Shown here in pieces: positions 21,873-50,882 of a stretch of DNA of 64,000 bases (the first letter of the stretch is position 1; each line of letters starts with the position of its first letter). The notes under the pieces are model-generated. The model made no database searches. It had not been told where the DNA came from and saw only the letters and a program-made list of their open reading frames with translations. The stretch is from Halobellus captivus (lineage in GTDB: Archaea; Halobacteriota; Halobacteria; Halobacteriales; Haloferacaceae). Position numbers and translations under genes: made by a program. Where the stretch lies: NCBI RefSeq assembly GCF_007655485.1, contig NZ_VJXQ01000001.1:937081-1001080 (forward strand), written 5' to 3'.

Positions 21873-21945
21873 GGGCTCGTGGTCTAGTGGTTATGACGCT
21901 TCCCTTACAAGGAAGAGATCGGTGGTTCGACTCCGCCCGAGCCCA
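21873..21945 (+). tRNA. tRNA-Val (anticodon TAC)
   Basis: A cloverleaf can be folded by eye. The acceptor stem pairs GGGCTCG (21873-21879) with CGAGCCC (21938-21944), with discriminator A at 21945. The anticodon arm is CTTCC-CTTACAA-GGAAG, which puts TAC in the loop. The T arm is GGTGG-TTCGACT-CCGCC. The CCA end is not encoded. Its 3' end is the integration target of the genomic island that follows. Confidence 0.93.
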
Positions 21946-21972
21946 TACGTATCACGCACGGTTTCTAAGGCA
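21932..21972 (+). repeat. Left attachment site (attL), 41-bp direct repeat
   Basis: This 41-bp segment runs from the T loop/T stem of tRNA-Val to 27 bp past its end (TCCGCCCGAGCCCATACGTA onward). It recurs without mismatch at 50883-50923. Because it includes the tRNA 3' terminus, integration leaves a complete tRNA gene at this end. The copies diverge immediately on both sides. Confidence 0.9.
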
Positions 21973-22427
21973 CCGATTTCATCGCGTAGAAGCGATATAG
22001 CCCAATTTTCCCAATTTTTGTCGCCGTAGCGACGGGGTTCGATTTTCCCGAACCCAATCGTTTGTCGACTGGCCCCCGCCTCCGTCCGAGGTTCTGCGTT
22101 ATCCGAACGCGCGCTGGAGTATCAATGTATCGGGGCTGTGTTCAGATTAGCTGGCTGGACGGCAAACGCTTGAGTTCTATCGCGCCGAATGGCCTATGAG
22201 TGCCGAGCCAGCTTTCTATCCATCCATTTGCAGGAAGAATGGACAACGTCATAGAATCGCGTCTGCAACCTTCTAAGAAAGGATAATCGTGACCAAAAAC
22301 CGAATAGAGAACATTCTGAGAGGTCACATAGGTCTTGTTATCGGTCCTACTGTTTCACTACACGAAACCAGACATAGCGACCTTCCTGTCAGAAAATGCT
22401 TAGTGAATCGGATAGGAACCGGGTTGT
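21973..22427. other. Non-coding left end of island
   Basis: No credible gene is seen between attL and the PLD nuclease gene. The first ~100 bp contain T-rich runs (CCCAATTTTCCCAATTTTTG) and a small hairpin, GTCGCCGTAGCGAC, which could end tRNA transcription. Beyond about 22140 the sequence is A+T-rich, with only short frames of shadow composition. Confidence 0.5.
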
Positions 22428-23588
22428 ATGAAAGTGTCTTTTGTCGGTCAAGGATTCGAGAATTCTGATAATCCAATAGGCGTCCTACTCAACGAGTCAT
22501 TTGCCGATGAGAGCTATACGAAATTCCTCTCCCTCGTCGCCTTTGCTCGTTCATCTGGAATCCGAAATCTAAGTGGGGTAATACAACAGTCAAAGGAGAA
22601 TATCGATGAATTTCAAGTTATTGTCGGTATTGATCAAAAAGGAACCACAAAAGAAGCGTTAGAAGACTTATTAGAGTTAGATATTGGTGCAAGTGTATTC
22701 TATACTAGGTCTCCAAGCACATTCCATCCAAAAATTTACGTTTTTGAGGGGCCCGATAACGGGAGAGTGATTGTTGGTTCTTCTAATCTAACCAATTCAG
22801 GTCTATTTCGAAACGTGGAATCATCGATTCTTGTCGATTTCGAAAAACCCGATGAGGATGGAGAGGCGGTAATAACCGATATTCGGGAATACTATCAGCC
22901 GTTGATTTCAGGGACTAGTCCTAATGTCCATAAATTATCTACTGATTTGATTAATATGCTATACGAAAGCAACCTCGTAGATAGTGAAGTAGATACTAGG
23001 GGCAATTCTGAGTCATCAGCTTCGGGCCAAAGCGACACATCTGATGAAGTCCGCGACCTGTTCCCCCCGATAGATGTTGCTCGTCCACCAGCAGAACACT
23101 CAGGCCCTGGACTCTCAGACTCAGAGGTTCGTCAGGTAGAGGAGATGGATACGGGACGAGGACCTCTACTGTGGGAAAAGCCAGATTTACCTCGATCAGA
23201 TGCTCAAGATCCTAGAGCTAGCCACGTAACTGGGCAATTGCGATTTAGTCAAGCTGGTTGGGAAGTTTCTGGGGATGTTATTGACCAAACCACGTACTTC
23301 AGATATGATGTATTTTCAGACTTTGATTGGGAGGAAATTGAGACTAATCCGATTGTTGAATCTGCTCAGGTCATCTTTCACGTAAACCTCGACGATGAGT
23401 ATGAAGGCTATCATCAACTTGAACTCATTCATAAACCAGTCTGGGAAGCTGAACAGCGGAATGTAACGACAATGCTACGGTGGGGTGAATTGAACCAAAA
23501 GGTGAGTGAGTTGGATTTGACCGGAAAGACATTCTACCTTTATCGTCCCGAGAATGGCTCTGAGCCGTACTATATTGTAATTAGATAA
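22428..23588 (+). CDS. PLD-family nuclease, NgoFVII/BfiI-like restriction endonuclease candidate
   Basis: The 386-residue protein has one phospholipase-D-type HKD motif: H100-P-K102 (TFHPKIYVFEG), followed by GRVIVGSSNLTNSG with the conserved Asn at 120. Single-HKD PLD nucleases such as BfiI dimerise to form one active site and cut DNA without metal. Residues 180-250 are a polar linker. The C-terminal ~125 residues (FRYDVFSDFDWEEIE ... KTFYLYRPENG) are beta-rich and resemble the B3-like DNA-recognition domain of NgoFVII/BfiI-type enzymes, although I infer this from pattern only. It has no adjacent methyltransferase on its own strand, and it is convergent with the TBP-like gene 9 bp away. A+T-rich codon use suggests transfer. 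Confidence 0.75.
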   Translation: MKVSFVGQGFENSDNPIGVLLNESFADESYTKFLSLVAFARSSGIRNLSGVIQQSKENIDEFQVIVGIDQKGTTKEALEDLLELDIGASVFYTRSPSTFHPKIYVFEGPDNGRVIVGSSNLTNSGLFRNVESSILVDFEKPDEDGEAVITDIREYYQPLISGTSPNVHKLSTDLINMLYESNLVDSEVDTRGNSESSASGQSDTSDEVRDLFPPIDVARPPAEHSGPGLSDSEVRQVEEMDTGRGPLLWEKPDLPRSDAQDPRASHVTGQLRFSQAGWEVSGDVIDQTTYFRYDVFSDFDWEEIETNPIVESAQVIFHVNLDDEYEGYHQLELIHKPVWEAEQRNVTTMLRWGELNQKVSELDLTGKTFYLYRPENGSEPYYIVIR

Positions 23589-23597
23589 GATCTATTC

Positions 23598-24152
23598 CTA
23601 CATTTGCAGCTCATCCAATTGTTGCTTAAGTTTCGAGATGACACGGTTGACTGCTTCTTCCCCGACAGAGGTATTGATGACACATTTACCCGATGCAGAG
23701 ATTGTCATTGTACAGTTAATATCTGATGGGTGATAGACGATATATGGGAATTGTTCTGGCTCATACTCGGCTTCCTCTCCTAGCCAAATATCAAGTTGAG
23801 TGACATTGATGTCTCTATCAAGGTCAACTGAATACACATAGTTGGTTACCGAAACGGAGTGCCCGTTCTTCCCGTCGATTATTCCATACTCTATCAGTAT
23901 CTCTAAAAAGCTCTCGTTCGTTCGGTGTAATCCCTCAACTGAATCACTTCCCATAATAGTGTATTTGCCCGAACGATAGAGGCTGATAGTTCCTGTTTCG
24001 CCAGAAAATCGGACTGTAATCCCTTGGCTGGTTCTGTTAACATTCTCGATAGAAGAATTCTCGGCAATATCTTGTAGAACTGCATCAAGGTCCAATTCAC
24101 GACCTAGATTTCCACTTCCGACTACATTCACTACTTCGACTGATTCGGGCAT
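23598..24152 (-). CDS. Divergent TATA-box-binding protein (TBP) homologue
   Basis: The 184-residue protein has the two-repeat TBP architecture. Repeat 1 (about 5-90) starts VEVVNVVGSGNLGRELDLDA and contains SLYRSGKYTIMG. Repeat 2 (about 98-184) contains VSVTNYVYSVDLDRDINVTQ, EYEPEQFPYIVYHPSD and ISASGKCVIN. The YEPEQFP motif of repeat 2 is intact at 130-136, but its counterpart in repeat 1 is lost. The DNA-kinking Phe before each SGK is replaced by Tyr-Arg in repeat 1 and Ser-Ala in repeat 2. DNA bending is therefore likely altered. The gene starts 7 bp after the Type IIG enzyme stop on the same strand, so the two are probably co-transcribed. Haloarchaeal megaplasmids are known to carry extra TBPs, but pairing with a restriction gene is unusual. 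It may be an element-specific initiation factor or a control protein. Confidence 0.8.
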   Translation of the reverse strand: MPESVEVVNVVGSGNLGRELDLDAVLQDIAENSSIENVNRTSQGITVRFSGETGTISLYRSGKYTIMGSDSVEGLHRTNESFLEILIEYGIIDGKNGHSVSVTNYVYSVDLDRDINVTQLDIWLGEEAEYEPEQFPYIVYHPSDINCTMTISASGKCVINTSVGEEAVNRVISKLKQQLDELQM

Positions 24153-24159
24153 TATATTC

Positions 24160-27100
24160 TCAATCTACGATGTCCAACGGTTTCACGGATTCGTGTTGCC
24201 TATTATATCTATGCACATGCTCCTGAACATCTTCTTCCGATAGCCCATAGAGTTCGAATACAGCTTCATTGATTTGCTCCTCTAATTCAGCAATATCTCC
24301 ATCGTTGCGGGTTGAGATATCCTCAGCTAGCTCATCCAGCGCGTTTTGCGCAACTTCGTCATCAAGGGGGACGGGTAGCGAAAGTGTTTGGTTCTTGTGT
24401 AGTTTGGTATCTTGGAGTGCAGTTTGTACATATTCGGCCTTCACGCCGGAGTCAATACCCTCAGAAAGTGATTGACCATCGTCCAAGACTAATGTCGTAT
24501 CCCGGTCCAAATTCTGCTGGACAGATGGTGAAGAAATAAAAGTCGATTCAGGAGTTATTGTCACATCTATAAATTCCGCTCCCTTCTCACGGGCCTTAAG
24601 AATATACGGGTCCGGGAATTGGGGTATCTTCGTTTCAAGGTCTTTCAGGTGAAGAATCTCATTAACCGCAGTTTCAATGCGTTCTTTCAATTCCCCTGTT
24701 GGAACTTTCACCGGCCATTTTGAGATATAGTCTTTAATGTAACTGTAGGCTCTCCCTCTGTGGATTCGAGAATGGTGTTTATGATAATATTCTGTTATAG
24801 CAGAATTCAAAACTCCTGCTATGGAATATCTTTTATCCTCAGCAACGGCAAACGAATAGACCCGCGCATTATGCGGTGCAATAATGCCTTCATCGTCGAA
24901 GCATAGGCTATTTTCGTTCTTTTGATTGCCTGTTAGCAATTTGGGATACGGAAGCGACTCAATATTCTGGCGGCGCATATACCGATACCACCAGAGATCC
25001 TTGTCGAACAAGTCAATGACATCTACATTTGTTCTAATCGCACGACTCAGGTCCTGATACTGGCTTGATGAAAGGTCTGCCTGTCTATAATCACGCTCAC
25101 CATCATTTGTCGTCACATCATCCTCGTCAATTACATCAAGTTCGTAGGCGAGGCGGTTATGAATCTCCTCACGCTCCACGGAGTCCTCGGACAACGTTTC
25201 CAAGACCTTCGCGTCAGAGAAGTATTCCCACGTCTGCTCATATTCTTCTTTCAACTCTCGGGGGCGAATCAATTGCGCTCGCTCGTCACCCTGTTTGTAC
25301 GGGACGAAAACAAGGCGGTTGTCCCAAGAAGGCAACCATCGTTCAACGTCCTGACTACTGATGTCTATCTTCAAAAGCCCCGTTTCTACAGTATATGTTT
25401 CGTCAATCCCGCGCGGAGTAATCGGGAGCGTATCTATTTCACTCAGTTTCTCCTTGCTAATACCCACGATAGGATGAACGATGTATGCATTATCTCCACT
25501 AGTCTGAATTCCCACCATAATTTCATCCCCGACCAAATTCGGTGCATCCTCTGGGGAATTGTTCCGGATAACTCGCCTATCCCCCAGACGCATATCCATT
25601 AGGTCCTCAACCTGGCCCAGAACGTCATACTCACTCATAGGGCAGAACGGCCACACGTCTGCTATCGGCAGCATCTTCGAAACAGAAACACGCTGGCCGT
25701 TTGCCGTGAAACGAGTAGACATCTCCTCACGATAGACTTCACCTCGTTTTACCCATACACGACCTTGGAGGTGTTTGGAATCTATGTCGAAGAACTCGAT
25801 GGTCGGGTGAGGTACCCGCGCTCGGATAGTACTAATCAAAGACTGAACATCCACATTATCGGAGTCATCTGTCTCCTCCCACTGACGAACACGAGTCGAC
25901 AAGATTGAATGCTCATTAGTGAAAGAATCGTCTTCTATGAACGAGTCCCAATCGTCGTTATCGACCTCCTTCTCAACCGTTATTGCCGCGGTGTAGTTCG
26001 TTGCGTCAGGGAATATCGGAACATCGGTAAAGTCGATAATTTCGTGAATCCGATTCTTAGCAAGTAGGGCACGGATTTCCTTTGCACCTGAATTATAGAG
26101 GAAACGGTTTGATACGACGAACCCGAGTTTCCCCCCAGTGTGAAGCATATCGAGACCACGCTCCATAAACTCCATATAGGGGTCTGATTCGCTCCATGCC
26201 GAATAGTAGAGTTGCTGCATCCGCCGGTTCTGGTCATCCCCAGTATATCGGTTCTGCTTAGCGACCCACGGTGGGTTCCCAATGACGTAGTCATGTGAAA
26301 TATCGTTCTTAATGATAGACGCGAGCACAACGTCCTCAATGAGTTTCAACAGTCGGCCGTCATTGTAGTCGTGACGTAAGTCTTCAACTGTTCCGAGGAA
26401 TCCGTTTGCTGTATCAAGAAAGACATTTGCAATCTGCTCCGTACTGATGTGGGGCTCAAAGTAATCAGTAAAGTATGACTCCAATTCGTCCTGCTCAACC
26501 TCGTAGCGTTCTTGCCGCCCGCCGATTTCTTTGACTGCGTCGAATACGCCGAGTAGCGCTGAGAAGTACTGTTGTTGGTTCTGAATTTCGTTTAGCGTCT
26601 TCTCTTGTACATAACTAAACTCGGGCAGTTCGAATGGGAGGGATTCGAAATCACTTCCTTGACGAATTGGGAGAGGCATCTTGAATTCAATCATTCCCTT
26701 ATCGTGGCTGGCAGTGAGAGTCTGCTGGAGTCCCTCCTCAACTTGACTCTCATCGATAAGTGAGTCGGTGCGGTAAATCGGGAGTCGTTTGAGGACGAAC
26801 CCCGGACCCTCCTGCTCGACTGCTTCCCCGTACTCCGGCAGAATATCGAGCATAAACCGAATCTGGGCTAGCACGACTGCGAACGGATGGATATCTAATC
26901 CAACGAGTCGGGACCGCTCACATAGGTTACGGAGTTCAGTTGCCCAGTTCGTGTCCCCACCACACTGCTCCCGGTATTTTTCTAGGGCTTGTATCAGAAA
27001 CGTACCAGAGCCGCATGAAGGGTCGATAAGCCGTTGCTGACGAAGGTCCCGGTCACTTTCCGCAGGATCGTAACCTGCGGAGTCCAAGACGTATTCTGCC

Positions 27101-28326
27101 AAACTTGGGGGGGTGTAGAACTCACCCAGTGCACGGCGAGTTTCTTGTGTGAAGTGCTTCTGGTACAGCTCTCCGAGTGGGTCGCCACGGATATTCATGT
27201 AGTTAAAGCGTGAGACAGATAGAATAAACTCAAGCAGTGTTCGGTCAAACTCTCGCATAGCCCGCGGCCAGTCTGTTTGACTCAGTTCCCGAACGTCACC
27301 CGCGTCGTAGTCCTCAACAGGTGCGTTCCACCAGTAGTAGATGTCCTGTTCGAAAATGGATTCTACGAGTTCCTGCCGCATCTGGTCCATCAAGTCACTC
27401 GCAGCGATTGTGTAAGACCCGACGGGAACCGTGTCACGAAACTCGCGTGTATTTCCTATAATAAACTCCGAGAGCGACAGAGAGGGGAAATCAAAGTCGT
27501 CACAGGCCTTCGCCAACATAAACCGTCCGAGCAAGGATTGGACAGTTTCAACAGCGAACATAACCTTCTCTTTATTCGCTGCTGACCCGGCGATATCCTG
27601 CCACTCATCAGGGAGATCACTCCAATTAGGTTCTGCCGAGTAGTACTCCTCCCAGAACTCGTAAGCGTCCTTTGGGAACGAATTCTCTTCGCGCTCGACA
27701 TAGTAGTCGAGGAGGTTGTACGTCTTTTCGAGCATTTCATAGAATATGGTATTCTGCTCGTTAGCGAAGGTAGTCAGGAACTCATTCTGACCAACCTGCT
27801 CATCATCAATTACCTCTCCAATAGATACAGAATCAATCGAATCGAGATACTCGGTGAGTTCGGATTTCGTACTAAATTCGTAACTCGGTTTGTGAAGGTC
27901 AACGATCTCGTCAGCTTCCACGTCAGTAATCTCTTCTAGCGAATTGCGGAAGATACGTTCTGCCCGGTCCCGTGCCCCACGTTCGTATAGAATGATTTCC
28001 TGTCCGTCAGTCAGAACGCCATATCTGGCTTTGAGAGGCTTTACATATTGCTCCCAGAGTTGGGGTTTGTGATTTGCTAGGTCTTCGTCTCTAGACGGTT
28101 TCTTAAATTCGATTGTGAATACCGTATTATCGAGGTCGTCTTTCCCTGAATAATCTGCTCGTCCCTTCCCCACGATACTCTCTTCAGAGCGTATGTCTAC
28201 TCCGAACCCTTCGTACCCAAGCTCGGAAAAGAACCCTTCGTCAACAAAAATATCCATAACCTCACTTTCGGATAGGTTGGGATTCTGTTGTACGTTCTCG
28301 AAGATGGAACGAAGGATATCCTGCAT
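24160..28326 (-). CDS. Type IIG restriction-modification enzyme (Eco57I-like, 1388 aa)
   Basis: A single chain combines nuclease, methyltransferase and specificity regions. The N-terminal PD-(D/E)xK domain shows GRADYSG (Asp58) and FTIEFKKP (Glu73-x-Lys75). A helical segment follows, then an N6-adenine methylase: GEFYTPPSL (401-409), SAM motif I DPSCGSGTF (435-443), GLDIHPFAVVLAQIRF, and catalytic motif IV NPPW (684-687). Roughly residues 850-1240 form the TaqI/Eco57I-like target-recognition region, and the C-terminus is helical. Such enzymes methylate one site and cleave unmodified DNA nearby. The gene is A+T-rich compared with the chromosome. A TATA-like ACTTTATC lies about 25-35 bp upstream on the minus strand, and the TBP homologue follows 7 bp after the stop. 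Confidence 0.9.
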   Translation of the reverse strand: MQDILRSIFENVQQNPNLSESEVMDIFVDEGFFSELGYEGFGVDIRSEESIVGKGRADYSGKDDLDNTVFTIEFKKPSRDEDLANHKPQLWEQYVKPLKARYGVLTDGQEIILYERGARDRAERIFRNSLEEITDVEADEIVDLHKPSYEFSTKSELTEYLDSIDSVSIGEVIDDEQVGQNEFLTTFANEQNTIFYEMLEKTYNLLDYYVEREENSFPKDAYEFWEEYYSAEPNWSDLPDEWQDIAGSAANKEKVMFAVETVQSLLGRFMLAKACDDFDFPSLSLSEFIIGNTREFRDTVPVGSYTIAASDLMDQMRQELVESIFEQDIYYWWNAPVEDYDAGDVRELSQTDWPRAMREFDRTLLEFILSVSRFNYMNIRGDPLGELYQKHFTQETRRALGEFYTPPSLAEYVLDSAGYDPAESDRDLRQQRLIDPSCGSGTFLIQALEKYREQCGGDTNWATELRNLCERSRLVGLDIHPFAVVLAQIRFMLDILPEYGEAVEQEGPGFVLKRLPIYRTDSLIDESQVEEGLQQTLTASHDKGMIEFKMPLPIRQGSDFESLPFELPEFSYVQEKTLNEIQNQQQYFSALLGVFDAVKEIGGRQERYEVEQDELESYFTDYFEPHISTEQIANVFLDTANGFLGTVEDLRHDYNDGRLLKLIEDVVLASIIKNDISHDYVIGNPPWVAKQNRYTGDDQNRRMQQLYYSAWSESDPYMEFMERGLDMLHTGGKLGFVVSNRFLYNSGAKEIRALLAKNRIHEIIDFTDVPIFPDATNYTAAITVEKEVDNDDWDSFIEDDSFTNEHSILSTRVRQWEETDDSDNVDVQSLISTIRARVPHPTIEFFDIDSKHLQGRVWVKRGEVYREEMSTRFTANGQRVSVSKMLPIADVWPFCPMSEYDVLGQVEDLMDMRLGDRRVIRNNSPEDAPNLVGDEIMVGIQTSGDNAYIVHPIVGISKEKLSEIDTLPITPRGIDETYTVETGLLKIDISSQDVERWLPSWDNRLVFVPYKQGDERAQLIRPRELKEEYEQTWEYFSDAKVLETLSEDSVEREEIHNRLAYELDVIDEDDVTTNDGERDYRQADLSSSQYQDLSRAIRTNVDVIDLFDKDLWWYRYMRRQNIESLPYPKLLTGNQKNENSLCFDDEGIIAPHNARVYSFAVAEDKRYSIAGVLNSAITEYYHKHHSRIHRGRAYSYIKDYISKWPVKVPTGELKERIETAVNEILHLKDLETKIPQFPDPYILKAREKGAEFIDVTITPESTFISSPSVQQNLDRDTTLVLDDGQSLSEGIDSGVKAEYVQTALQDTKLHKNQTLSLPVPLDDEVAQNALDELAEDISTRNDGDIAELEEQINEAVFELYGLSEEDVQEHVHRYNRQHESVKPLDIVD

Positions 28327-28632
28327 TGAGAGGTACTGCTCTTGCTACCTCTGATAAAGTTTCGGTCAAGTGTCCTCGAAAGAGTTCATTGTACGATTAG
28401 TCACGCTCTGAGTCGCACAGCGGCGGGTCTGCTAGTGCCTCCGGGTACCATCGAATGGACGACTTGGAAGTTCGTCAACGAAGGCCCACACAACCCCCGT
28501 GCTTCCCTGTTTGACTATCACCTAGGCATCGGCGTGCACCGTCTCACCGTCCGTTTCCGTAGGCCGTGGGAACGAGTACAGAAACACCCTTCTCAAGACA
28601 TTGTTATAAGGCGCTTCTGAACGATAATGGCC
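28327..28632. other. Intergenic region with promoter of the Type IIG operon
   Basis: This stretch lies between the 3' end of mcrC and the 5' end of the Type IIG gene, both on the minus strand. On the minus strand, AAACTTTATCAG (about 28349-28361) is positioned 24-35 bp before the ATG of the Type IIG gene. The plus-strand frame here has shadow composition. No gene is seen. Confidence 0.5.
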
Positions 28633-29910
28633 TCACCAAGGAAGTTGGGCAGCAACACCCCGTTGAATCGTTGTAAGGAGGGACTGTCCATCAACAGCTT
28701 TGACGGGGACTTCCACCAGCGTGAGCGAGTCAAGATCACGTACCTCATATGTGGATCGCAGGGCCTGCTCTTGCTCTGGATAAAATAGTACACCAGGGAC
28801 GTCGTGTGCTACTTGATACGCGACAAGTTGATAGATATCACTGGGCGACGGTTCGCGACTATTGGCTGCTGGATTGTCACGCTTCCACTTTGCATCACCC
28901 ACAAGCCGAGCACGCTCCCCATCCGAAACCAACACGTCAGGGCGGATCTGTATCCGGCGATGACCGCCTGAGACAAGTCGCGTTGAAGTAGCCTGTGCCG
29001 TGGCGACCCAGCCGCGTTCAGTTGCCAGCTCAGAAACCACCCGTTCAACCACCTCCTCAAAGATCGTATTCATATTCACTAAGAGAGCATACGAGTCTCG
29101 GTCCGCGACGCGGAGTGAATCGAGATGCACGTTCTGTAGCACTAGCTTGGTCAATCGAACGAGATCCTCGTAGTACTCCATCAACCGTGTTAGCTCGACT
29201 GATTCCAACTCGATTGGCCGCACTGGCGTCAGCTCGACTCGGCGGCGTAACTGTTGCTGGTGCCGGCGTAGTGCCCTGTTAAGATCGGGGTCACTGACGA
29301 GCCGCTGCAGAACCGTTGTGGCATAGAGGATTGCCTGGTTAACCGTGGTATCAACCGTTAATTCGTCGTACGTACACTCGAAGGCTGTCGGCGTTGGCCC
29401 CTGTCGTTGAAGTTGTTGCTGCACATTGATTCGGCCTCGGAGGTGGTCAGTAGTCCGTGATACGCGGCTGTATGACCCGTGAAGCCCCTGGGTCAACACG
29501 TGATCGAGCTCGTTTTGGAACAGCATCGCAAGCGCATCAATAAACCGGGCTCCACCGGCAAGTTGAGTCTCCTGCTCGAACGTCTGCGCTTCAATATTTT
29601 GTGCGTATTTGAGAAGTCCAAGAAGGTCTGTGTTGGCTATTTTTGGGCGAATCTCAACCGTTGGCCCCTCTGGCAATGCGACGATTCCGATATGCTGAGT
29701 AGCTCGGAGTCGGGCACGACCGTCTGCCCGATATTCCAGCAGAAGGCGGGTCGCTTTATCTGACCCAGTTCCCCCATTAATTTCCCGTTCGACCGTCTCT
29801 CGAGCCTTTGAGGGAAGCTCTTCTGTATCCAGGTATGGGGTTGCCTCGTATTCGCGAAGCGTGTAGTCGGGCTCACTCGTGGAGAGGGAAGCGGACTGCT
29901 GACCACTCAT
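28633..29910 (-). CDS. mcrC: McrC-family nuclease subunit of a McrBC system
   Basis: McrC is the nuclease and McrB-stimulating partner in modification-dependent restriction. The N-terminal beta-rich adaptor includes 'GIVALPEGPTVEIRPKI' (74-90). The middle contains 'HLRGRINVQQQL', which is typical for the family. The PD-(D/E)xK nuclease at the C-terminal part reads IRPDVLV (Asp325) and LVGDAKWK (Asp339, Lys341). The 425-aa length fits McrC. Its ATG overlaps the mcrB stop by 4 bp (ATGA), so translation is coupled. Confidence 0.9.
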   Translation of the reverse strand: MSGQQSASLSTSEPDYTLREYEATPYLDTEELPSKARETVEREINGGTGSDKATRLLLEYRADGRARLRATQHIGIVALPEGPTVEIRPKIANTDLLGLLKYAQNIEAQTFEQETQLAGGARFIDALAMLFQNELDHVLTQGLHGSYSRVSRTTDHLRGRINVQQQLQRQGPTPTAFECTYDELTVDTTVNQAILYATTVLQRLVSDPDLNRALRRHQQQLRRRVELTPVRPIELESVELTRLMEYYEDLVRLTKLVLQNVHLDSLRVADRDSYALLVNMNTIFEEVVERVVSELATERGWVATAQATSTRLVSGGHRRIQIRPDVLVSDGERARLVGDAKWKRDNPAANSREPSPSDIYQLVAYQVAHDVPGVLFYPEQEQALRSTYEVRDLDSLTLVEVPVKAVDGQSLLTTIQRGVAAQLPW

Positions 29911-32306
29911 AACTCGGCTGACTGAAGCTTCTCGGGGATAGGCTCACCATCTCGAATTGCACGTGCCAGTTCGAGGAGAGAGTATTCGTCATACCCAGGG
30001 ATGTACCAGTAGTCGTGGCCCGCGTAACTGGTTCGATCGGTATCGCGATGATCGTGATCGATCCGACGAGCGAGGTCAGTTAGAGAATGGAGCTCGCCGT
30101 CATATGCCCACCGGACGCCCTTTTGTGTCCCGAGATCTGCGACCGTACACACCCAATAGTCGCTGTCCGGCTCAAACTGTGGCTCCGGACTCTCGTGCAT
30201 ACTGTCAATATCGAAGTGGAGTTCATCCCCAATCTTCAACACGTTATTCTCTGCTAAATAGCCGAGCGAGTTCGAGAAAGAGTCCTCGGATGACGTCGGA
30301 GTTTCCCAAACAACGTTGATGCCGACTAGTTCAGCGAGTACAGTGGCGAGCTCACCTGCTGTGAATGCGCGAATCTCCTGGCGGTCCGTATCAAGCAGCT
30401 CTCCAGCATCACCATCGAACAGCTGTTGTTCGATCTGGACGAACTGCCCAAAGTAGTATTCCTCCAAAAGTGGAAGGATCTCGAACTGCCAGGCATCAAC
30501 GATCTGGGCGACCTGTTCGGTCGCCTTACCGTCCTGATCGATCCCGAGTAGATACGAGTGGCCGAGCTGTTTGCCACGCCCAAGTTGGGATGCATCGCGG
30601 ATCCGCGCATTCAGCTGTTTCCATGCGAGAATTGAGAGGGCAAGCAGCGAATCGGCCGCATCCCCCTCAGTAGCGAGCGCCTCTAATTCAACCTCACCGT
30701 CGAATCCATATCTCTCTTCCAGCGGCGTCATCTCCGGCGGGAAATGGATGAATCGGAACCGGCGTCTCAGCGCCGCGTCCACCAGGGCAATCGATCGGTC
30801 GGCCGTATTCATCGTCCCAATTACATACAGATTTGGTGGGACGGTGAACCGTTCGTTCGAGTGGGGGAGCGTTGTGGCGGTTTCGCTGGTAGCATCTTGT
30901 CGTTTATCCGGTTCCAGGAGGGTGATGATCTCACCGAAGATCTGAGCGAGATTCCCCCGGTTGATTTCGTCGATGATAAGGACGTATGGCGGTGGCGATC
31001 CTTCGGACTCCCCCTCGCGGTGCGACTCGTAGGCAAGACGCGCTCGATCACAGAGCCGCTTGAACACACCGGCCTCAACCGCATATTCGACGCCACCATT
31101 GTGTTGGCGAGCAGTCAAGCCCTCGATGAAATCTTCATACGTAAACGACGGATGGAAGGTGACGACTTCGAGTTGGGCTTCCGTCGGTGCGTCCGACTGT
31201 TTTGCAATCCACCATCGGGCGAACTCGCGGGCAGTGTACGTTTTACCCGTCCCCGGCGGGCCATGGAAGATAAGTTGATTTACCCGAGAAAGTTGGCGAG
31301 CAATCGTATCCCGTCCTCGCGGTGGCCTCGTCGACTCTTCCAGCGGTGGCCGCCGGAACCGCTCGTCGAGTAGTTGATCCATCTTCACGTGATTGAAATT
31401 TGGGGTGAGATCCGCCTGTAATTGTAGACCCCGGATTAGCACGACGAAGAGAACTTGCGCAGGTGTCAGTGAGGAGTCGGTGATCTGTTGAACACCAAGT
31501 CGATCAGCTTGGGTTTGGAGTTGCTCGATATGCCTATTGTACAGATCAAACAACTGCTCATAAACGTGGACATCGCTTGGATCGATGTCGTTTTCGACGG
31601 TGGAATTGCGTCGAAGGACAGTCGTCCACTCTTCAATAACGTCAGTCGCAAGCGCGCTGCCAAGCCAGTTGCCAGGGGATCCATCGGTGAGCTGCTCTCG
31701 GATTGCAGCCGTCGCCTCGGAAATGCCACTGTACGGCTTGGTGCCTCCGCTGACAGTATAGCCGTGTTTTTCGAGTAGCGTTCTCAGGTTCGATGATTCG
31801 GCAGCGAAGATCTCAACGAGCTCTGGGGGGCACTCAGTAAAATAATGTCCTTGATTTAGCTGTAGGTTCTTTGTGTAGAAGATTTTCTGGTCGGTTGTCT
31901 CACAAATCCGTTGCAGATCCTCGGTGTATTCCTCGTTCCGGAGGATGTCATCATAGATGTGAATATGCGGTTCGATACCCTCCTTTGACCGAAGATCACG
32001 ACGATAGCCGCCCCCGGCTTGTTCCTCACTCCACCGATTATCTGGAGGGCCCTCGAAATCCTCCTGTAGTTCTGAATCGATAACGGAAACCGCGACGATT
32101 TGATATTGTTCTTGCACCAGATGGAGAACGATATCTCCAATATCAGCTTCGCGCAGGGTTTCATACCGCCGGTAGCCACCATTATCCCTGCTCGGTGAAA
32201 TCAGCGCTTTTCCGAGTGCTAATTCTCCTTCTTGCTTGTAGCGCCTGCCCTCCTGCTGGGTTTTCTCAATCCAGACGCGAGGAGAGGAGGACTCATCAAT
32301 GTTCAT
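29907..32306 (-). CDS. mcrB: McrB-family AAA+ GTPase with EVE/PUA-like N-terminal domain
   Basis: The motor subunit of a modification-dependent restriction system. With the ATG giving MNIDESSSP, Walker A GPPGTGKT lies at about 349-356, Walker B ending in IDEINRGN near 446-452, and the McrB signature IGTMNTADRS near 496-505. The N-terminal ~150 residues (RVWIEKT, ELALGKALISPSRDNGGYRRY, DIGDIVLHL, DNRWSEEQAGGGYRR) look like an EVE/PUA-superfamily domain. Such domains read modified bases and replace the DUF3578 domain of E. coli McrB. A GTG at 32381 would add 25 residues. The central ~170 residues are helical. Confidence 0.87.
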   Translation of the reverse strand: MNIDESSSPRVWIEKTQQEGRRYKQEGELALGKALISPSRDNGGYRRYETLREADIGDIVLHLVQEQYQIVAVSVIDSELQEDFEGPPDNRWSEEQAGGGYRRDLRSKEGIEPHIHIYDDILRNEEYTEDLQRICETTDQKIFYTKNLQLNQGHYFTECPPELVEIFAAESSNLRTLLEKHGYTVSGGTKPYSGISEATAAIREQLTDGSPGNWLGSALATDVIEEWTTVLRRNSTVENDIDPSDVHVYEQLFDLYNRHIEQLQTQADRLGVQQITDSSLTPAQVLFVVLIRGLQLQADLTPNFNHVKMDQLLDERFRRPPLEESTRPPRGRDTIARQLSRVNQLIFHGPPGTGKTYTAREFARWWIAKQSDAPTEAQLEVVTFHPSFTYEDFIEGLTARQHNGGVEYAVEAGVFKRLCDRARLAYESHREGESEGSPPPYVLIIDEINRGNLAQIFGEIITLLEPDKRQDATSETATTLPHSNERFTVPPNLYVIGTMNTADRSIALVDAALRRRFRFIHFPPEMTPLEERYGFDGEVELEALATEGDAADSLLALSILAWKQLNARIRDASQLGRGKQLGHSYLLGIDQDGKATEQVAQIVDAWQFEILPLLEEYYFGQFVQIEQQLFDGDAGELLDTDRQEIRAFTAGELATVLAELVGINVVWETPTSSEDSFSNSLGYLAENNVLKIGDELHFDIDSMHESPEPQFEPDSDYWVCTVADLGTQKGVRWAYDGELHSLTDLARRIDHDHRDTDRTSYAGHDYWYIPGYDEYSLLELARAIRDGEPIPEKLQSAEL

Positions 32307-32587
32307 ACCGACTACATTCTCGGTAATGTAATCAAACCACGGTCTGTCACCAATATAATAACCACTATCGCATAGTCCCACAAATACAATAAGTAACTAA
32401 TCGCTGGGAGTAGTTCAGATCGGAAAGATATGAGCTTGTAGCTCGAACGGGGAGAGACCGTCGCGTATTTGCGGAAACGCGAAATCAAGCATACCGATGA
32501 CCTCTGACTGAGCAACTACGGACCCAATCCTCATTAGTTTCACTCCGCTCAGACAAGTATTATCTTAACACTCAGCAAGTACGAGGT

Positions 32588-32917
32588 ATGTGGATTGAGG
32601 TACTTCCTCCGGTTGTCATCGAAAATCTGGACGTGATCGCGTTGATACTGCTCGGACTGCTCGTTGAAAAGCAGTACATCAGCCGGCCCGCCATCTGGGC
32701 GAACGTCGCAGCCATCAACATTCACCTATACGACTACTCGTTCGTCAGCGACTGGCTTGTTTGGTACGCGAATCTCGGAGTTATCGTCGCTGGCCTCGCT
32801 CTCTACACATACGGGTTCGATGAATCACTCCCTGGATGGTATTACACGCTCGCTTGGGCGTACTCATCAATTCCCGTTGCAGGAATTGCGTACCTGACTT
32901 GGAGTGGTGCGCTCTGA
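32588..32917 (+). CDS. Small membrane protein, unknown (109 aa)
   Basis: The protein is mostly hydrophobic with four probable helices: residues 8-25 (IENLDVIALILLGLLVE), about 33-48 (ISRPAIWANVAAINIHL), 53-74 and 85-106. Trp and Tyr cluster at the segment ends (WLVWYANLG, GWYYTLAWAY). I recognise no family. It is the only plus-strand gene between mcrB and the KAP gene and ends 23 bp from the KAP stop. It could be an effector or inhibitor of the neighbouring systems, but that is inference only. Confidence 0.6.
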   Translation: MWIEVLPPVVIENLDVIALILLGLLVEKQYISRPAIWANVAAINIHLYDYSFVSDWLVWYANLGVIVAGLALYTYGFDESLPGWYYTLAWAYSSIPVAGIAYLTWSGAL

Positions 32918-32940
32918 ATACTGTCGAGAACTTCAACTAG

Positions 32941-35900
32941 TTACTCCAGATAATATTCTTTGATGCCTTCCAACCTTTCCTGATCAACGGTCTCTAATTG
33001 CTCGAACCGTTGGATCAAGTCCTTAGCCGCATTCTTGACTGCATTGTTATTCGTCCGGTCGAGAAGGCTCTCTAGGCGATCTAGTATCTGATCCTCCTTC
33101 CCATAGAACTCCTTAAAACCGGCAATCTGTTCAACGACTGTTTTCAATTGACTGGCGTTGAGATTTTGATCAGTCAGGGCATTGCTGAGCCGTTCCATAA
33201 ACCGGCCGCCTTGGTTCTTTCCGAGCTCTTCAGGCATCGATTGCAGGACTTCGATAATCGGTGTGAGGTGGTCCGGGTTCTGGTTATTGCTGAGTCTCTG
33301 AGCAACTTCTTCTCGCACGTCCCCGACAACTGCTGCACGTCGATCTGCGTCTGCGTCTTCCGAAAAGGCGTCCCACAGTTCCTTATAGACCTTGTAGTCG
33401 CCTGCATTGCCTCGAAGAAGGATCTCCATTTGTCCGATGAAGCTCTCTTGCTCCGGCCCATCAAGCTTCGAGAAATGCTTAGCGATAGGCATCAAGAGTC
33501 GTTTCTTAACGTTTGAGTTATTCTCACCTTTGGCCTGTCGACCGCATTGCTCAATAATCGAACCCCACTCTTCCTCAAATCTACTGGGGTGCTTCTCAAC
33601 TATCGAAAGCCCGAGTTGTCTATGGTTGTTATTGTTGTTCTGGATCAGTCCGTCTGCTTTATCAGCAATCTTCGAATCGTATTCAGACGAAACTCGTGGA
33701 ATCACTTCGTCAATGATGAAGTCCTCGTTGTTGATGTGGCTAGGTACACGAGAGAGAAACGCATCAACTTCTTCTTCAGACTCAAGCACCGGTATCTTAT
33801 TCTCCACTGCAAATTCGTAGATCTCTCTCACGTTATTCGGATTCCACTTCCGGTACAAGTCGCTAATCAACTGCTGAACCTCCGACCAAGTATTCTCTGA
33901 GAACGACTCGTGGAAGTGTAGGACGGCCTCAACAAGTACAACCCTCTCGTTACTCTTCTCTTCGAGAAGCTCCTTAATCGTCTGAAAAACTTTTTCTGCT
34001 GTAGATTCTGAAACCTTTGAACCTACCTCCATCAACTCACGAGCAAGTGACTGATCGATTTGATCCGCTTGATTCCCATTGTAATCGTCTCGAAGTTCAA
34101 GCAGCTTCTCTACGTAGCTGCTACGGCCATCGACACCAGCTATGTCATCAAACTGACCGTACTGCCCAGTCTTTGTATACTCGTTCTGATTGTCCTCCAT
34201 CTCAACCAGTGAAGCAGCAACTTCGATAATCTCAGCCGTGACCAAGTGCTCCTTAGCTTCGCTGGAATCTGCTAAACTCTTCAGAGCAGCACTCAAGTTA
34301 TCATCTCGCAGATCAATTACACTGGTAGAGAATTTTGAGACTGTACGCCTAGGGATTTCGTCAGCGTGTGTGATGAATGCCTCTAAGACACCATCGTTCA
34401 GTCCATCTTCAATTTTGACTAATTCTGCGAACCTGTTGAAGAGCCGGCGTGAATAACGTGCCGGCATCACCAGTAGTATCGGGAATACAGATTTTGCATT
34501 AAGATGAGGTAGATCCTCGCGTACAGGATTTCTCACCAGATATTTGCCGACGACTTGGGCGACCTGCTTCTTTTCTTCTTCCTCTAGTACGTTGAAGATA
34601 GAGACCAAACTTCGAATAATGCTATACATTGGCTGCTCACGACTGTTTGAACGGTAGGTCTGAAGGTCGTCATCAATGGCATCACAGTACTGAGCAAATG
34701 AACGACTTCTCTCCCTGATATCCTCTATTTGCTCTCGAAGCTCTGATTGTTGGCCCGTCTTCAAGTACCGCATTACGTCGTCTAAATCATCTAAACCAGA
34801 CGAATAGGACGGTTCTGCAAGATTAAGGAAAGGACGGACATTCGGTGCTGTAACTCTTTGAGTCGAGCTGAGGAACGATTCCAAACGTGATTCTCCTCGT
34901 TCATCAATATCGAGAATTTTCTTTATACGGTCCTGCTTGTCCTCATCTTGTAAGTCATTGTTGAAATATGAATTAACATCGTCTAAGAGGTACGGGTCAT
35001 CTACAAGTTGCCTGTAGAAGTCTGAGAACTCCTCTTCCAGTATTGAAATCTTTGCAAGGAACGGCGTATTTTCAGTGATTCTCCCCGAGTTCAGTATCCC
35101 CTCTGCCTCTCGTTCTTCTGCGATTTTTCGGAGAGTAACGAGCCGGTTGATCGCGTTTTTAATTCTGCGGGGGTTCTCAAAGTAGGCGTTTGCTATGATA
35201 TCAACAGTCTCTTCGTCAAATGAATTGCTAAGCTGTTCATTCTGCTCCTGAGCATAGTTTTCGACATCTTCGGTTTGGAACGGTGGGATCCGCATATGGG
35301 TCTGGAAAAACTTTCTGAGGAACTCGCGCTCGCTTCGTGTATCCCCAAAATATCCGTCCTCGTTAATCGCCTTTAGGTGACTCTCCAACGCTTCATCATC
35401 ACACGGAATCAAGTAGATACAACGGTCGTCCTCCAAGAAGGTCTTCAAGGACACGAGGACGTCGTAGACCGTGTCGCTTTCACACCGGTCCAAGTTATCC
35501 ACTGAGATGACGACCTTTTCGGCCTCCGACTCCTGAATAATTGACTCGAAGATCCTTTGATAAGCACCGGTCCACTCCTTCCGAGGGTACAAAAACTTCC
35601 TCTGAATCGTCTGAGCAACCGTATCCAACTGCTGTAGAATATATCCTAGCACAGGTAACAGTAACCCTGTCAGGACTACTGATGCGGCAGCAGAGTATCC
35701 GCCAGCTTCTAACGCAACAGCGGCTATAGCCAATCCAACAAATGCTATTGCAAGTAATGGGCTGTCAGACCAGAAATCAGAGATAATTTCTTGTGGGCTA
35801 CTGGATTTCGTGACTTGCTCATCTTCCTCTACGTCGTAAAGCCGGCCCGTAATGTCGTCTTCTCCGAGAACACCTTCCGAATCTTCACCGTCGATCTCTT

Positions 35901-36213
35901 CACCAATCGCTTGATCTAATTCCAGAAGTAGTTCTGTCCGGATCGAGTCTTCAGCGTGAGCCCAAGCGTCGAACTCGATACAAAGCACCTCGTCAAATTC
36001 TGAGCGGCTCCGTATTCTGTTATACAGCAGTTTGATAATCGAGCTTTTTCCTGACCCCCACTCACCGAAGATGCCGACGTGCCAGGGTGGCTCAACATTC
36101 TGAATGACTGTGGAGAGAGTGTCTACGTATTCGATATGGCCAAAGCTGTCTTGCTCTTCAGAAGTGATTGGATCATCAGTTAGGAACATACGACTATCAT
36201 CGGAAGACGTCAT
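32941..36213 (-). CDS. KAP-family P-loop NTPase with membrane hairpin (about 1090 aa)
   Basis: KAP NTPases are AAA-related ATPases with transmembrane helices inserted between Walker A and Walker B; the F-plasmid phage-exclusion protein PifA belongs here. This protein shows GIFGEWGSGKSS (Walker A, about residues 48-58), VLCIEFDAWAHAED, and a hydrophobic hairpin at about 150-193 (LLAIAFVGLAIAAVALEAGG, VVLTGLLLPVLGYI). Walker B is KVVISVDNLDRCESD at about 232-246, followed by RFFKKFFQTHMRIPPF-like sequence (EFLRKFFQTHMRIPPF) and NPRRIKNAINRLVTLR. The C-terminal ~650 residues are a long helical, charged, HEAT-like region. I use the ATG giving MTSSDDSRMF, because the upstream frame begins only with TTG. 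The gene is A+T-rich and stands alone on the minus strand. Confidence 0.85.
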   Translation of the reverse strand: MTSSDDSRMFLTDDPITSEEQDSFGHIEYVDTLSTVIQNVEPPWHVGIFGEWGSGKSSIIKLLYNRIRSRSEFDEVLCIEFDAWAHAEDSIRTELLLELDQAIGEEIDGEDSEGVLGEDDITGRLYDVEEDEQVTKSSSPQEIISDFWSDSPLLAIAFVGLAIAAVALEAGGYSAAASVVLTGLLLPVLGYILQQLDTVAQTIQRKFLYPRKEWTGAYQRIFESIIQESEAEKVVISVDNLDRCESDTVYDVLVSLKTFLEDDRCIYLIPCDDEALESHLKAINEDGYFGDTRSEREFLRKFFQTHMRIPPFQTEDVENYAQEQNEQLSNSFDEETVDIIANAYFENPRRIKNAINRLVTLRKIAEEREAEGILNSGRITENTPFLAKISILEEEFSDFYRQLVDDPYLLDDVNSYFNNDLQDEDKQDRIKKILDIDERGESRLESFLSSTQRVTAPNVRPFLNLAEPSYSSGLDDLDDVMRYLKTGQQSELREQIEDIRERSRSFAQYCDAIDDDLQTYRSNSREQPMYSIIRSLVSIFNVLEEEEKKQVAQVVGKYLVRNPVREDLPHLNAKSVFPILLVMPARYSRRLFNRFAELVKIEDGLNDGVLEAFITHADEIPRRTVSKFSTSVIDLRDDNLSAALKSLADSSEAKEHLVTAEIIEVAASLVEMEDNQNEYTKTGQYGQFDDIAGVDGRSSYVEKLLELRDDYNGNQADQIDQSLARELMEVGSKVSESTAEKVFQTIKELLEEKSNERVVLVEAVLHFHESFSENTWSEVQQLISDLYRKWNPNNVREIYEFAVENKIPVLESEEEVDAFLSRVPSHINNEDFIIDEVIPRVSSEYDSKIADKADGLIQNNNNNHRQLGLSIVEKHPSRFEEEWGSIIEQCGRQAKGENNSNVKKRLLMPIAKHFSKLDGPEQESFIGQMEILLRGNAGDYKVYKELWDAFSEDADADRRAAVVGDVREEVAQRLSNNQNPDHLTPIIEVLQSMPEELGKNQGGRFMERLSNALTDQNLNASQLKTVVEQIAGFKEFYGKEDQILDRLESLLDRTNNNAVKNAAKDLIQRFEQLETVDQERLEGIKEYYLE

Positions 36214-36641
36214 TAGAGGACAACCTGTACTCGAATTATAAATAAACCCGTCAATATTACAACGACTCAAACACTGCTTCACCAATACTTAGCTCGTCGA
36301 TTTTTTGCATTATCTGTGCTCTTTTCTTCTCTTACTCCTTTCTGTCGCGCCAGTGATGCTGTTTCCCCGTCCGTATCTCTCAGTAAAACTCTTTGAAGGA
36401 AGATTATGGGCTGGAAAGATGAAACGCAACTCTCCTCATTAGACGAGACGTCATAAAAGATATCTCTGAAAGCCTTAATTGGGCACACAGTGGCTAATTT
36501 GTACAGACACATATTACTCAATATTGGCACCAAGTCCCGCACTGATTGGTGTTGTCCCGATCTCAGCTGCCGTCTGTAACATACGGGAAAAGAGTCGAAA
36601 TAACGGGGAGTATTTTCTTTCTACAGGCTAAACCTGACGCT
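36214..36641. other. Intergenic region between KAP and VapB genes
   Basis: No convincing gene. The segment carries divergent promoters: A+T-rich DNA precedes the KAP start, and AGTATTTTCTT (about 36609-36619) lies 23-33 bp before the vapB ATG. AGTCCCGCACTGA at 36533-36545 recurs at 44883-44895, with similar flanks on both sides. Confidence 0.45.
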
Positions 36642-36896
36642 ATGACGTCGAAAGCCGACAAGCGGGGCCGGATCTACCTCCCCAAGGAGATCCGTGAAAA
36701 GCACGGCCAGAAATACCGCATCGTCGAACTGCCGTCGCACGTCGCGTTGTTCCCCGTCGCCGACGACCCGCTCGCCGCGATCGAGGACGAAGTCGGCGAC
36801 GCCTTGGCGGGCAAAGACGTCGACGAGCTCAAAGCCGAAGCGCGCTCAAAAGCGGCCCGCGAGGTCGCAGCCGAACGCGACGAGGAAGAGGACTGA
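36642..36896 (+). CDS. VapB-type antitoxin with SpoVT/AbrB DNA-binding domain
   Basis: The N-terminus MTSKADKRGRIYLPKEIREK is a swapped-hairpin AbrB/MazE-like DNA-binding domain. It is followed by strand-rich 'YRIVELPSHVALFPVADDP' and an acidic helical tail that would neutralise the toxin. The ATG at 36642 is supported by a TATA-like element 23-33 bp upstream. Its stop lies 6 bp before the PIN-domain gene. GC content is high compared with the flanking KAP gene. The 84-aa length is typical. Autoregulation by the toxin-antitoxin complex is expected from family knowledge. Confidence 0.85.
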   Translation: MTSKADKRGRIYLPKEIREKHGQKYRIVELPSHVALFPVADDPLAAIEDEVGDALAGKDVDELKAEARSKAAREVAAERDEEED

Positions 36897-36902
36897 CTCC
36901 AG

Positions 36903-37307
36903 ATGTACGTCGAGAGCGATTTTCTGTTTGCCCTCGCGAAGCCCGAGGACTGGCCGAAAGAGAACGCGACGGCCGCGCTCGAATCCGAGGACGTCTACAC
37001 GTCGCTTACTGCCTACACGGAGTTTCTCGTGTACTGGTACGACGAAGACGCAGCTGAGTACACCGTTGACGCCGCGACGATTGTTCCGAACCTCCTTGAA
37101 CTCGTGCCGGTCCGTCCCGCAGAACACGAGGAAGCGCTGCTCGCTGCGGTCTCGTTTATCGAAGAGTACGGGACGACGCCATTCGACTCCGTACACGCCG
37201 GGATCGCGCACACCAACGGCGATACGGTACTCTCCACAGAACAGGATTACGACACCGTCAGCGTCGACCGCGTTCCCCTCGACTCGTACCTCAACGACAC
37301 CGAATAA
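36903..37307 (+). CDS. VapC-type PIN-domain ribonuclease toxin
   Basis: A 134-residue PIN domain. The four acidic residues expected at the metal site are visible: Asp6 (MYVESDFLFAL), Glu40 (TAYTEF), Asp95 (TTPFDSVHAG) and Asp115 (STEQDYD). VapC toxins cleave specific RNAs, often tRNA or rRNA, when the partner antitoxin is lost. It is the second gene of a bicistronic unit, with the antitoxin 6 bp upstream. In the island it could serve as an addiction module. Confidence 0.87.
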   Translation: MYVESDFLFALAKPEDWPKENATAALESEDVYTSLTAYTEFLVYWYDEDAAEYTVDAATIVPNLLELVPVRPAEHEEALLAAVSFIEEYGTTPFDSVHAGIAHTNGDTVLSTEQDYDTVSVDRVPLDSYLNDTE

Positions 37308-37325
37308 AACGCCGCCGAGGACAGT

Positions 37326-37481
37326 CATTCACAGATCAGACAGCGGAGCCTTGAATCGCTCACGCCACACCAGCGGACCGTCTACGAGATCCTGGGGGAT
37401 CACGGTCCGCTCGCCCCGAGCGAGGTCGACGACCGCTACGTCGACGCTGTCGATGATCCGCGGACGAAGCGAACCGTCTGA
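37326..37481 (+). pseudogene. Orc1/Cdc6 C-terminal winged-helix fragment
   Basis: In one frame this segment translates to sequence containing SLESLTPHQRTVYEILGDHG, PLAPSEVDDRYVDAVDD and PRTKRTV before a TGA. It resembles the winged-helix domain of haloarchaeal Orc1/Cdc6 replication initiators (LTPHQ, GPLAP, DDPRT-RTV). The AAA+ part is absent, no start codon precedes it, and the expected continuation after RTV is cut off. It begins 18 bp after vapC. It is probably the relic of a plasmid-type initiator, so the island may once have replicated. Confidence 0.65.
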
Positions 37482-37706
37482 ACATATCTTTCAAAGATGG
37501 AGCAGTACAACCTCCCCGCAGCCAAGGGGGACGAGTCGCAATCGAGAGTACAGTGTTGTCGGCGTTGATAGCGGTTGAGACCTCAGTCTGCACTGCTTTC
37601 CTATCATAGCGAATTGTAACAGGCATAAATGAGACTGAGAGAGGCGTATTAAACAGCGGATTCTGGCCCACTCCATACTTATTGGAATCCCCACAATAAG
37701 TCAGAT

Positions 37707-38651
37707 ATGGAACGAGATATCGCCAAAATCCAAGAGCATAACCTTCGCTCTGTCTGGGCGAACGAAGAGAGAGACTTTACTCGTTGGTTGAGAGAAAATG
37801 TCAATTTGTTAGGGGCTGAGCTCGGGATTGAGCTTGAAGATGCACGTACGGAAGAAGCAGTTGGTGACTTTTCAGCTGATATCGTAGCACGGGAGATGAA
37901 TACAGGGGAAGCCGTGGTGATCGAAAATCAATACAATAAGACAGATCACGACCACCTTGGAAAGTTGTTGACGTATTCATCAGGCAAAGATGCAGGTTTC
38001 ACGATCTGGTTAGCTGAGGAATTTAGACCAGAACATCGTAGTGTGCTTGAATGGTTGAATGAGAGCGGACCGAAGGATGTCAAATTCTTCGCGATCAAAC
38101 CACGTGTTGTGAGTGTGGAAGGCTCGGACAAACGTGGATTTGAGTTTGAAATAATTGTTGAGCCAAATGAATGGGAACGAGATATTACAGATGATTCTCT
38201 TTCAGAATCCGAGCGGAGCTATCGGCAGTTTTTCGCTGAGCTTGTCGAAGCGTACTCTGAGAAACGACCGAGCTGGTACAAACTCAAGCCTGGCCCTCGT
38301 AATTACCTAACCTTCAGTGCTGGTCTGTCGAGAGTCAGGCTGGGATGGGTTTTCCATCAGGGACCGGAATTCTCGGTTGAACTCTACATATCAACACCGG
38401 ATAAAGAACGCAACGAAGAGATTTTTCAGTCGTTACGAGAAGAACAGGAAGACATTGAATCAAGCTTAGAAGCTGAATTAGAATGGGAACGTTTGCCGGA
38501 AAAACAGGCCTGCCGAATTAAATGGCCCACACCGATCGAAGCGAGTATTACTGAACTAACAACCGATCAGCGTACCCAACTAATTGAGTGGGGGGTGGAT
38601 GCGATGAACGTCTTCCAGAATGAATTCGAGCCGAGAGTTTCTCAACTTTAA
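37707..38651 (+). CDS. DUF4268 protein with PD-(D/E)xK-like nuclease fold
   Basis: The N-terminal domain shows the nuclease-like pattern VGDFSADIVA (Asp54/Asp58), then VVIENQYNKTDHDHLGKLLTY. The usual ExK is Glu73-x-Gln75, as is common in this family. The C-terminal ~150 residues ('RSYRQFFAELVEAYSEKRPSWYKL' to the end) match the DUF4268 layout, with strands GLSRVRLGWVFHQGPEFSVE and helix ERNEEIFQSLREEQEDIES. DUF4268 proteins are found in defence islands and are probable nucleases, with no proven substrate. The gene is A+T-rich, unlike the next two genes. It appears to be a stand-alone transcription unit. Confidence 0.8.
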   Translation: MERDIAKIQEHNLRSVWANEERDFTRWLRENVNLLGAELGIELEDARTEEAVGDFSADIVAREMNTGEAVVIENQYNKTDHDHLGKLLTYSSGKDAGFTIWLAEEFRPEHRSVLEWLNESGPKDVKFFAIKPRVVSVEGSDKRGFEFEIIVEPNEWERDITDDSLSESERSYRQFFAELVEAYSEKRPSWYKLKPGPRNYLTFSAGLSRVRLGWVFHQGPEFSVELYISTPDKERNEEIFQSLREEQEDIESSLEAELEWERLPEKQACRIKWPTPIEASITELTTDQRTQLIEWGVDAMNVFQNEFEPRVSQL

Positions 38652-38917
38652 CCTCTAAAATATTCCTTGAAGCGGACCGTCGACATTTGATAGCCTAATA
38701 GTTTATTTCCGTTAATAGTGGGAGTTATGTTACAACTATATAAATCTATATTCCAAATTAGGGTCGAATATGTTCGCTCTTAGCTATTGTCTTGTTGGTA
38801 TTGGCGGACAACCAGAGTGATTCGGCAATTCATACACAAATATGCCGAAATGGGATTCAATCGCACTCTCTACGACTTAACCCCCACATTTAACCAAATA
38901 CTTACCAACAGCATAGC

Positions 38918-44361: not shown

Positions 44362-44404
44362 ATGGCGAACCGAACTGGCAGATCGATATTCGTCGCCAGC
44401 AGAT

Positions 44405-44710: not shown

Positions 44711-44730
44711 ATTGGGTGGAACTGACTATA

Positions 44731-50804: not shown

Positions 50805-50882
50805 CGATCTCACAGAACCGCGTTAGGAGGCTGGAGCGCGTCGATGCCGACAGGGAAGGAAACCCGCGCGATACGCGCTGGG

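Follow-up and report, generated by a model that had tools for sequence, protein, structure and literature searches.

In bacteria, RM operons are linked to small dedicated regulators, the C proteins and RptR (PMC3115060, PMC12255303), and the WYL-domain regulators BrxR and CapW form a single family that occurs together with varied defence systems and islands (PMC9122601, PMC9122589, PMC9122588). TBP-family proteins have a place in conflict systems of the TOTE/TALON type, whose components are TPR, OB, TBP and Effector; TALON is reported chiefly in Chloroflexota, with a TPR-CSD partner (cited in PMC12458937). In haloarchaea, Becker et al. (2014; PMC4230888) listed 21 homologues of TbpC-like proteins, in which the N-terminal Phe pair has been lost, and judged them to be perhaps non-functional or very specialised; the text of that paper makes no mention of restriction. 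Deletion of tbpC in Halobacterium NRC-1 gave no apparent phenotype (PMC2121645), and the gene was reported to be untranscribed in strain PHH1 (PMC4230888). In the literature that we searched, mostly non-subscription papers, we found no report of a link between a TBP and restriction, and TBPs are not mentioned in the surveys of RM systems or in the archaeal tailed-virus paper that were consulted.

The window analysed here, a stretch of 64,000 nucleotides from Halobellus captivus, carries a divergent TATA-binding protein (TBP) gene next to a Type IIG restriction gene. Like the C proteins and RptR, its product is a small protein linked to an RM operon; C proteins, however, are HTH proteins that recognise defined operators and are not TBPs, whereas the window protein has a predicted TBP fold, no HTH (Pfam, AF2) and no family-wide operator. 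As in the case of BrxR and CapW, one regulator family would stand beside varied defence systems, but these bacterial WYL-domain proteins do not have a TBP fold, and the window TBP has no WYL match in Pfam. The presence of a TBP-family protein inside a conflict-system operon is shared with TOTE/TALON; unlike in TALON, the partners of the window clade are methylases. Membership in TOTE was considered and rejected, as no TPR or OB domain was found among the island proteins scanned.

Results

The Type IIG gene and its TBP neighbour

The pair is encoded on the reverse strand and consists of a gene for a 1388-aa Type IIG-like restriction enzyme/adenine methyltransferase (24160..28326) and, 7 bp downstream on the same strand, a gene for a 184-aa protein (23598..24152), an arrangement described in the earlier note and confirmed by the ORF coordinates. 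The 184-aa protein matches PF00352 (E=1.9e-29) in two stretches that correspond to both repeats, and the solved archaeal TBPs 1ais and 1pcz match it at 1e-17 in a PDB sequence search. The AlphaFold (AF2) model has a mean pLDDT of 95.3, and is informed by related TBPs since 40 of them are present in the underlying alignment; in Foldseek, every match down to E~1e-8 is a TBP, with TM values of about 0.8. We conclude from sequence and modelled structure that the window protein is a genuine two-repeat TBP with a predicted saddle fold; the two-repeat homology and the saddle were, respectively, the proposal of the earlier note and the outcome of the structure prediction that it had called for. The H. 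captivus genome carries several canonical TBP genes plus this single divergent copy (23598-24152). The best NCBIfam model for the window TBP, as well as for both other clade members scanned, is NF001593 (PRK00394.1-2), a TATA-box-binding protein subfamily whose name is silent on defence, and the window protein scores 135.5 bits against its cut-off of 181 bits.

The larger gene is apparently intact, judging from its sequence. Its product matches Eco57I (1.4e-22) and N6_Mtase (1.1e-17) in Pfam, as well as TaqI_C weakly (2e-4, below the Pfam cut-off), and is recognised by PADLOC as REase_MTase_IIG (4e-39). It carries an N-terminal PD-(D/E)XK-like motif (GRADYS...EFKKP) together with DPSCGSGTF and NPPW, and displays the one-chain Type IIG layout of endonuclease, methyltransferase and specificity regions, in which the nuclease is assigned by motif alone and the specificity domain lies below the Pfam cut-off.

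Both genes lie within a low-G+C genomic island of approximately 29 kb (21932..50931), bounded by 49-nt direct repeats of 94% identity (21932-21980 and 50883-50931). The first repeat overlaps the 3' end of a tRNA-Val gene (21873-21945), and a tyrosine integrase gene (49806-50813, reverse strand) is located just inside the second. Genes for McrC (28633-29910) and McrB (29907-32381), identified by ORF and Pfam and spanning 28633..32381 on the reverse strand, probably form a transcription unit separate from the pair. A PLD-family nuclease-like gene (22428..23588, forward strand) converges on the TBP gene, 9 bp from its stop codon, and was not found in the IIG loci compared. Both sets of genes are given as context: the idea that McrBC, the PLD gene and the pair form one system was rejected, since no match to either was found beside the four IIG genes most similar to that of the window. 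The island also carries genes for a KAP-family NTPase (32941-36285, reverse strand), a PD-(D/E)XK protein and UvrD helicase-nuclease pair that is AddAB-like (38918-44361, forward strand), and an SMC-like ATPase (46794-49298, reverse strand), which are possibly more defence genes.

A clade of divergent TBPs located beside restriction and BREX genes

A search with the whole window protein, covering 171 genomes from the family of H. captivus and imposing no EYEPEQF requirement, was the source of most clade members and returned many TBPs that, by score, resemble the window protein more closely than canonical TBPs do; part of the clade members came from a scan demanding EYEPEQF. Forty TBP neighbourhoods were fetched first, and a scan of named genomes gave 80 more loci, many of them canonical, which were employed as controls. 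In the resulting tree the window TBP falls in a clade of 59 rows (support 100/98), within which its exact position is unsure because of its long branch; three other long-branch rows sit outside both the clade and the canonical side.

The neighbours of the divergent TBPs are HsdM-HsdS-HsdR operons, Eco57I-type methylases with an SNF2 helicase, Type IIG enzymes and PglX-PglZ-BrxL. RM or BREX markers are present within 5 kb of 54 of the 59 clade members versus 0 of 59 canonical TBPs (Fisher p=6e-28, a value that overstates independence because the rows are related, although the contrast is nonetheless complete). Since the marker profiles had been built on the first loci, 56 separately fetched loci, most of them from other haloarchaeal families, were tested. 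They hold 67 TBP genes, including a few short or divergent copies, and 61 carry an RM/BREX marker within 5 kb; this second sample is largely, but not wholly, independent, because of these odd copies and because a few loci repeat earlier regions (L318=L157, L279=L152). The search for the same gene pair in other haloarchaea, suggested by the earlier note, thus gave a recurrent association in both samples (54/59 and 61/67), and the divergent TBP that closes the restriction operon of the window is one case of a conserved linkage. Most of the marker-less cases, in both samples, adjoin an MjaI-type REase with a methylase, or Type ISP, NotI-like, DUF1156 methylase, PLD-helicase or ArdC-like genes.

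The TBP gene shares its strand with the nearest marker, at a distance of at most 50 bp and often with overlap, in 44 of 90 non-redundant cases, and in a further 12 the two are on opposite strands, 51-400 bp apart; both arrangements are layouts typical of regulators. The TBP gene is found at either end of the operon or divergent from it. Among the partners are restriction systems of Type I, Type II and Type IIG, BREX, and DISARM/BREX-like methylase-helicase systems, and every identified partner is based on DNA methylation. In a class-wide search with a strict cut-off, clade-type matches were present in 78 of 392 haloarchaeal genomes.

Several other features of these neighbourhoods were recorded. 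A GmrSD-type (Type IV) restriction gene is convergent with the TBP gene in L052, L054 and L055. A protein of ~670 aa, with similarity to PADLOC mad8/HerA, follows TBP genes that end Type I operons (L046, L047, L286). Near divergent TBPs, two TBP-like proteins (L041:10921-11754 and L157:8551-9375) carry approximately 80 extra N-terminal residues, a stretch that by eye looks like a winged helix (Pfam gave TBP only).

Repeat-1 kinking residues are mostly replaced and the TFB surface is kept

All four kinking Phe are present in 58 of 58 canonical TBPs. In the clade, the two repeat-1 positions are Tyr in 39 and 53 of the 59 members, the repeat-2 Phe are retained in 56 and 55, and the Glu pair of the TFB contact in 57 and 58; the Glu positions are those of human TBP E284/E286, which contact TFIIB. 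The alignment also agrees with the altered kinking positions and the single lost PEQFP motif that had been read from the window sequence, the motif being gone from repeat 1 and kept in repeat 2 (EYEPEQFP). The kinking positions of the window TBP are Ser, Tyr, Phe and Ser. With only one of four Phe left, the window protein has the fold and descent of a TBP but departs from the standard form. Four aligned clade members, the window copy included, keep a single kinking Phe and most keep two; the loss of Phe with retention of the stirrup goes furthest in two proteins, the window copy and the BREX-linked BND7 copy. Pairwise dN/dS within the clade has a median of 0.11 and a maximum of 0.26 (29 of 29 pairs at or below 0.26, the window copy being without a relative close enough for comparison), indicating that the TbpC-like clade is under purifying selection.

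The clade matches, by sequence, the TbpC-like proteins of 2014, with which it shares the loss of the repeat-1 Phe pair and the conservation of repeat 2. The window copy has likewise lost the repeat-1 pair, but unlike in the TbpC-like description it is also short of one repeat-2 Phe, and keeps the first of the two. On plasmid pNRC100 of Halobacterium NRC-1, the only TBP with this pattern among those read follows a methylase-helicase operon and, from its sequence and gene order, is likely to be TbpC. At this locus (L245, pNRC100 103476-109054) an ISH27-2 transposase gene interrupts the methylase gene that precedes the likely tbpC, and the NRC-1 tbpC deletion therefore says little about an intact system. 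Compared with a relative, the two parts of the split methylase match at 88% and at 33-35%, and the second may have a different origin.

The TBP is optional and changes partners

Among 40 fetched homologues of the window IIG gene, one has a TBP beside it and 39 have none within 5 kb; two further TBP-paired homologues (L063 and L064) were reached through the TBP search. The closest homologue, L111, is 87% identical over 1109 residues and has no TBP within 5 kb, nor do L112-L114. The TBP was therefore rejected as a required partner of the window IIG enzyme. The alignment to L111 (L111:7832-11991) runs at 87% identity over the 1109 residues, meets a frame break and continues in a C-terminal part of 65% identity, the drop being sharp and near the specificity region.

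On a tree of 99 non-redundant clade members, partner type changes at least 28 times (minimum possible 7, shuffled mean 54), a count that is approximate because many branches of this quick tree are weak. Neighbouring branches nonetheless tend to share a partner type, and the TBP therefore appears to be inherited together with a partner for a while and then swapped. Two viruses carry such genes: in Halorubrum virus HRTV-9 (L242) a Type IIG gene is followed 16 bp later by a gene for a TbpC-like TBP, and Haloarcula virus HJTV-2 (L243) has a clade-type TBP in whose vicinity an N4C-methylase and also an Eco29kI REase are encoded. In the plasmid collection, the TBP most similar to that of the window (42.6%) is found within a BREX locus, and a Halorubrum lacusprofundi plasmid bears one clade TBP.

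The promoter of the pair

Upstream of the IIG gene, a putative canonical promoter on the reverse strand (28353..28365) consists of the BRE CCGAAA (28360-28365) and the TATA-like element CTTTATC (28353-28359), and the promoter is retained (GACCGAAACCTTATCA) at L111, the homologue without a TBP. A special TATA element for the window pair was rejected on these grounds, and activation through such a box is therefore unsupported for this promoter; the window TBP is probably unnecessary for driving it. Between the TATA-like element and the ATG lies an inverted repeat, AGAGGTA-N10-TACCTCT (28329..28352, reverse strand), a candidate operator that lacks family-wide support. Inverted repeats with a 10-bp spacer at first seemed enriched; in 163 held-out upstream regions, none was seen with arms of at least 7, where 0.4 were expected, and the repeat was dropped as an operator common to the family.

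Discussion

The analysis reported above established the fold and the clade, the conserved linkage, the pattern of residues, the purifying selection and the optional presence of the TBP. From these we lean, slightly, towards the view that the window TBP is a dedicated regulator of the adjacent defence operon, acting through TFB. The winged-helix-like N-terminal extensions of related TBPs, judged by eye, point the same way. We would give an even chance to the wider proposal that, in haloarchaea and some of their viruses, a portable TBP family supplies dedicated regulators to defence systems that work by methylation (Type I, Type II and Type IIG, BREX, methylase-helicase). The window TBP would then be a portable regulator built from a general transcription factor, and a functional counterpart of C proteins and of BrxR/CapW. 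Since the repeat-2 stirrup is kept, the TBP could still engage TFB, and the change in the repeat-1 DNA surface (mostly Tyr in the clade, Ser and Tyr in the window copy) would yield a TBP-TFB-promoter complex of altered specificity or stability. Such a complex could tune, in either direction, transcription of the adjoining RM or BREX operon, and tuning of this kind may limit self-damage and time expression after transfer. With three of its four kinking Phe gone, the window copy may act by repression or by capturing TFB, at no lower probability than by activation. For the branch that it forms with its BREX-linked relative, in which most kinking residues are lost and the stirrup is kept, these two modes are a serious alternative. 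Of the three roles advanced in the earlier note, that of a control protein is the best supported, by the conserved RM/BREX linkage, though it stops short of proof.

The TBP could instead be an accessory subunit of a methyltransferase/restriction complex, for which its saddle would bind DNA, distort it, or act as a sensor of methylated A/T-rich sequence. We regard this as unlikely, even though the identified partners are all based on DNA methylation and many of the genes overlap or nearly so: a single clade serves unrelated enzyme types, and its best conserved part is the TFB-binding surface, which a subunit does not need. The DNA-binding subunit role that had also been envisaged for this locus is disfavoured, in an obligatory form, by the repeated changes of partner and by the close IIG homologues without a TBP (L111-L114, and 39 of the 40 fetched). 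An RM-specific, optional and swapped protein with a kept TFB surface and a changed DNA surface fits better with a dedicated regulator than with a subunit.

There is also a small chance that the protein is an antiviral effector or decoy that, by binding to TFB or to the TATA boxes of viruses, blocks transcription of the virus (or of the host), the RM genes being cassette neighbours. Its location in a defence island would suit such a role, as would a nearly invariant TFB stirrup in proteins whose DNA-kinking residues degrade, most of all in the window and BND7 copies, but viruses bear such TBPs beside RM genes of their own, and the linkage is specific to methylation systems and not to islands generally.

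It is quite improbable that the TBP serves the mobile element as a whole, as an alternative general factor that acts at promoters specific to the element and not at the restriction operon. Many copies do reside on plasmids, islands and viruses, but the constant neighbour is an RM or BREX gene and not other genes of the element, and the window promoter has an ordinary BRE/TATA. The element-specific promoter role put forward previously becomes less likely since the same clade accompanies RM/BREX genes on many replicons and viruses. Finally, it is highly improbable that these are island-acquired duplicates losing function, as Becker et al. (2014) considered for TbpC, for although the window copy is long-branched with lost Phe and TbpC was reported to be silent and dispensable, this reading is weakened by the low dN/dS (purifying selection in all compared pairs), and the near-invariant repeat-2 stirrup, the recurrent Phe-to-Tyr replacement and the near-exclusive RM linkage in two samples argue against it.

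With these results, one whole branch of the multiple haloarchaeal TBPs gains a concrete context, as it travels with restriction and BREX systems, and a clade TBP can serve as a simple marker for locating defence operons in haloarchaeal genomes. The proposed regulatory role can be put to the test in hosts that grow in culture, Halorubrum lacusprofundi among them. If it is true, it would provide an explanation for TbpC, earlier thought to be possibly non-functional, and general transcription factors would join the list of defence regulators.
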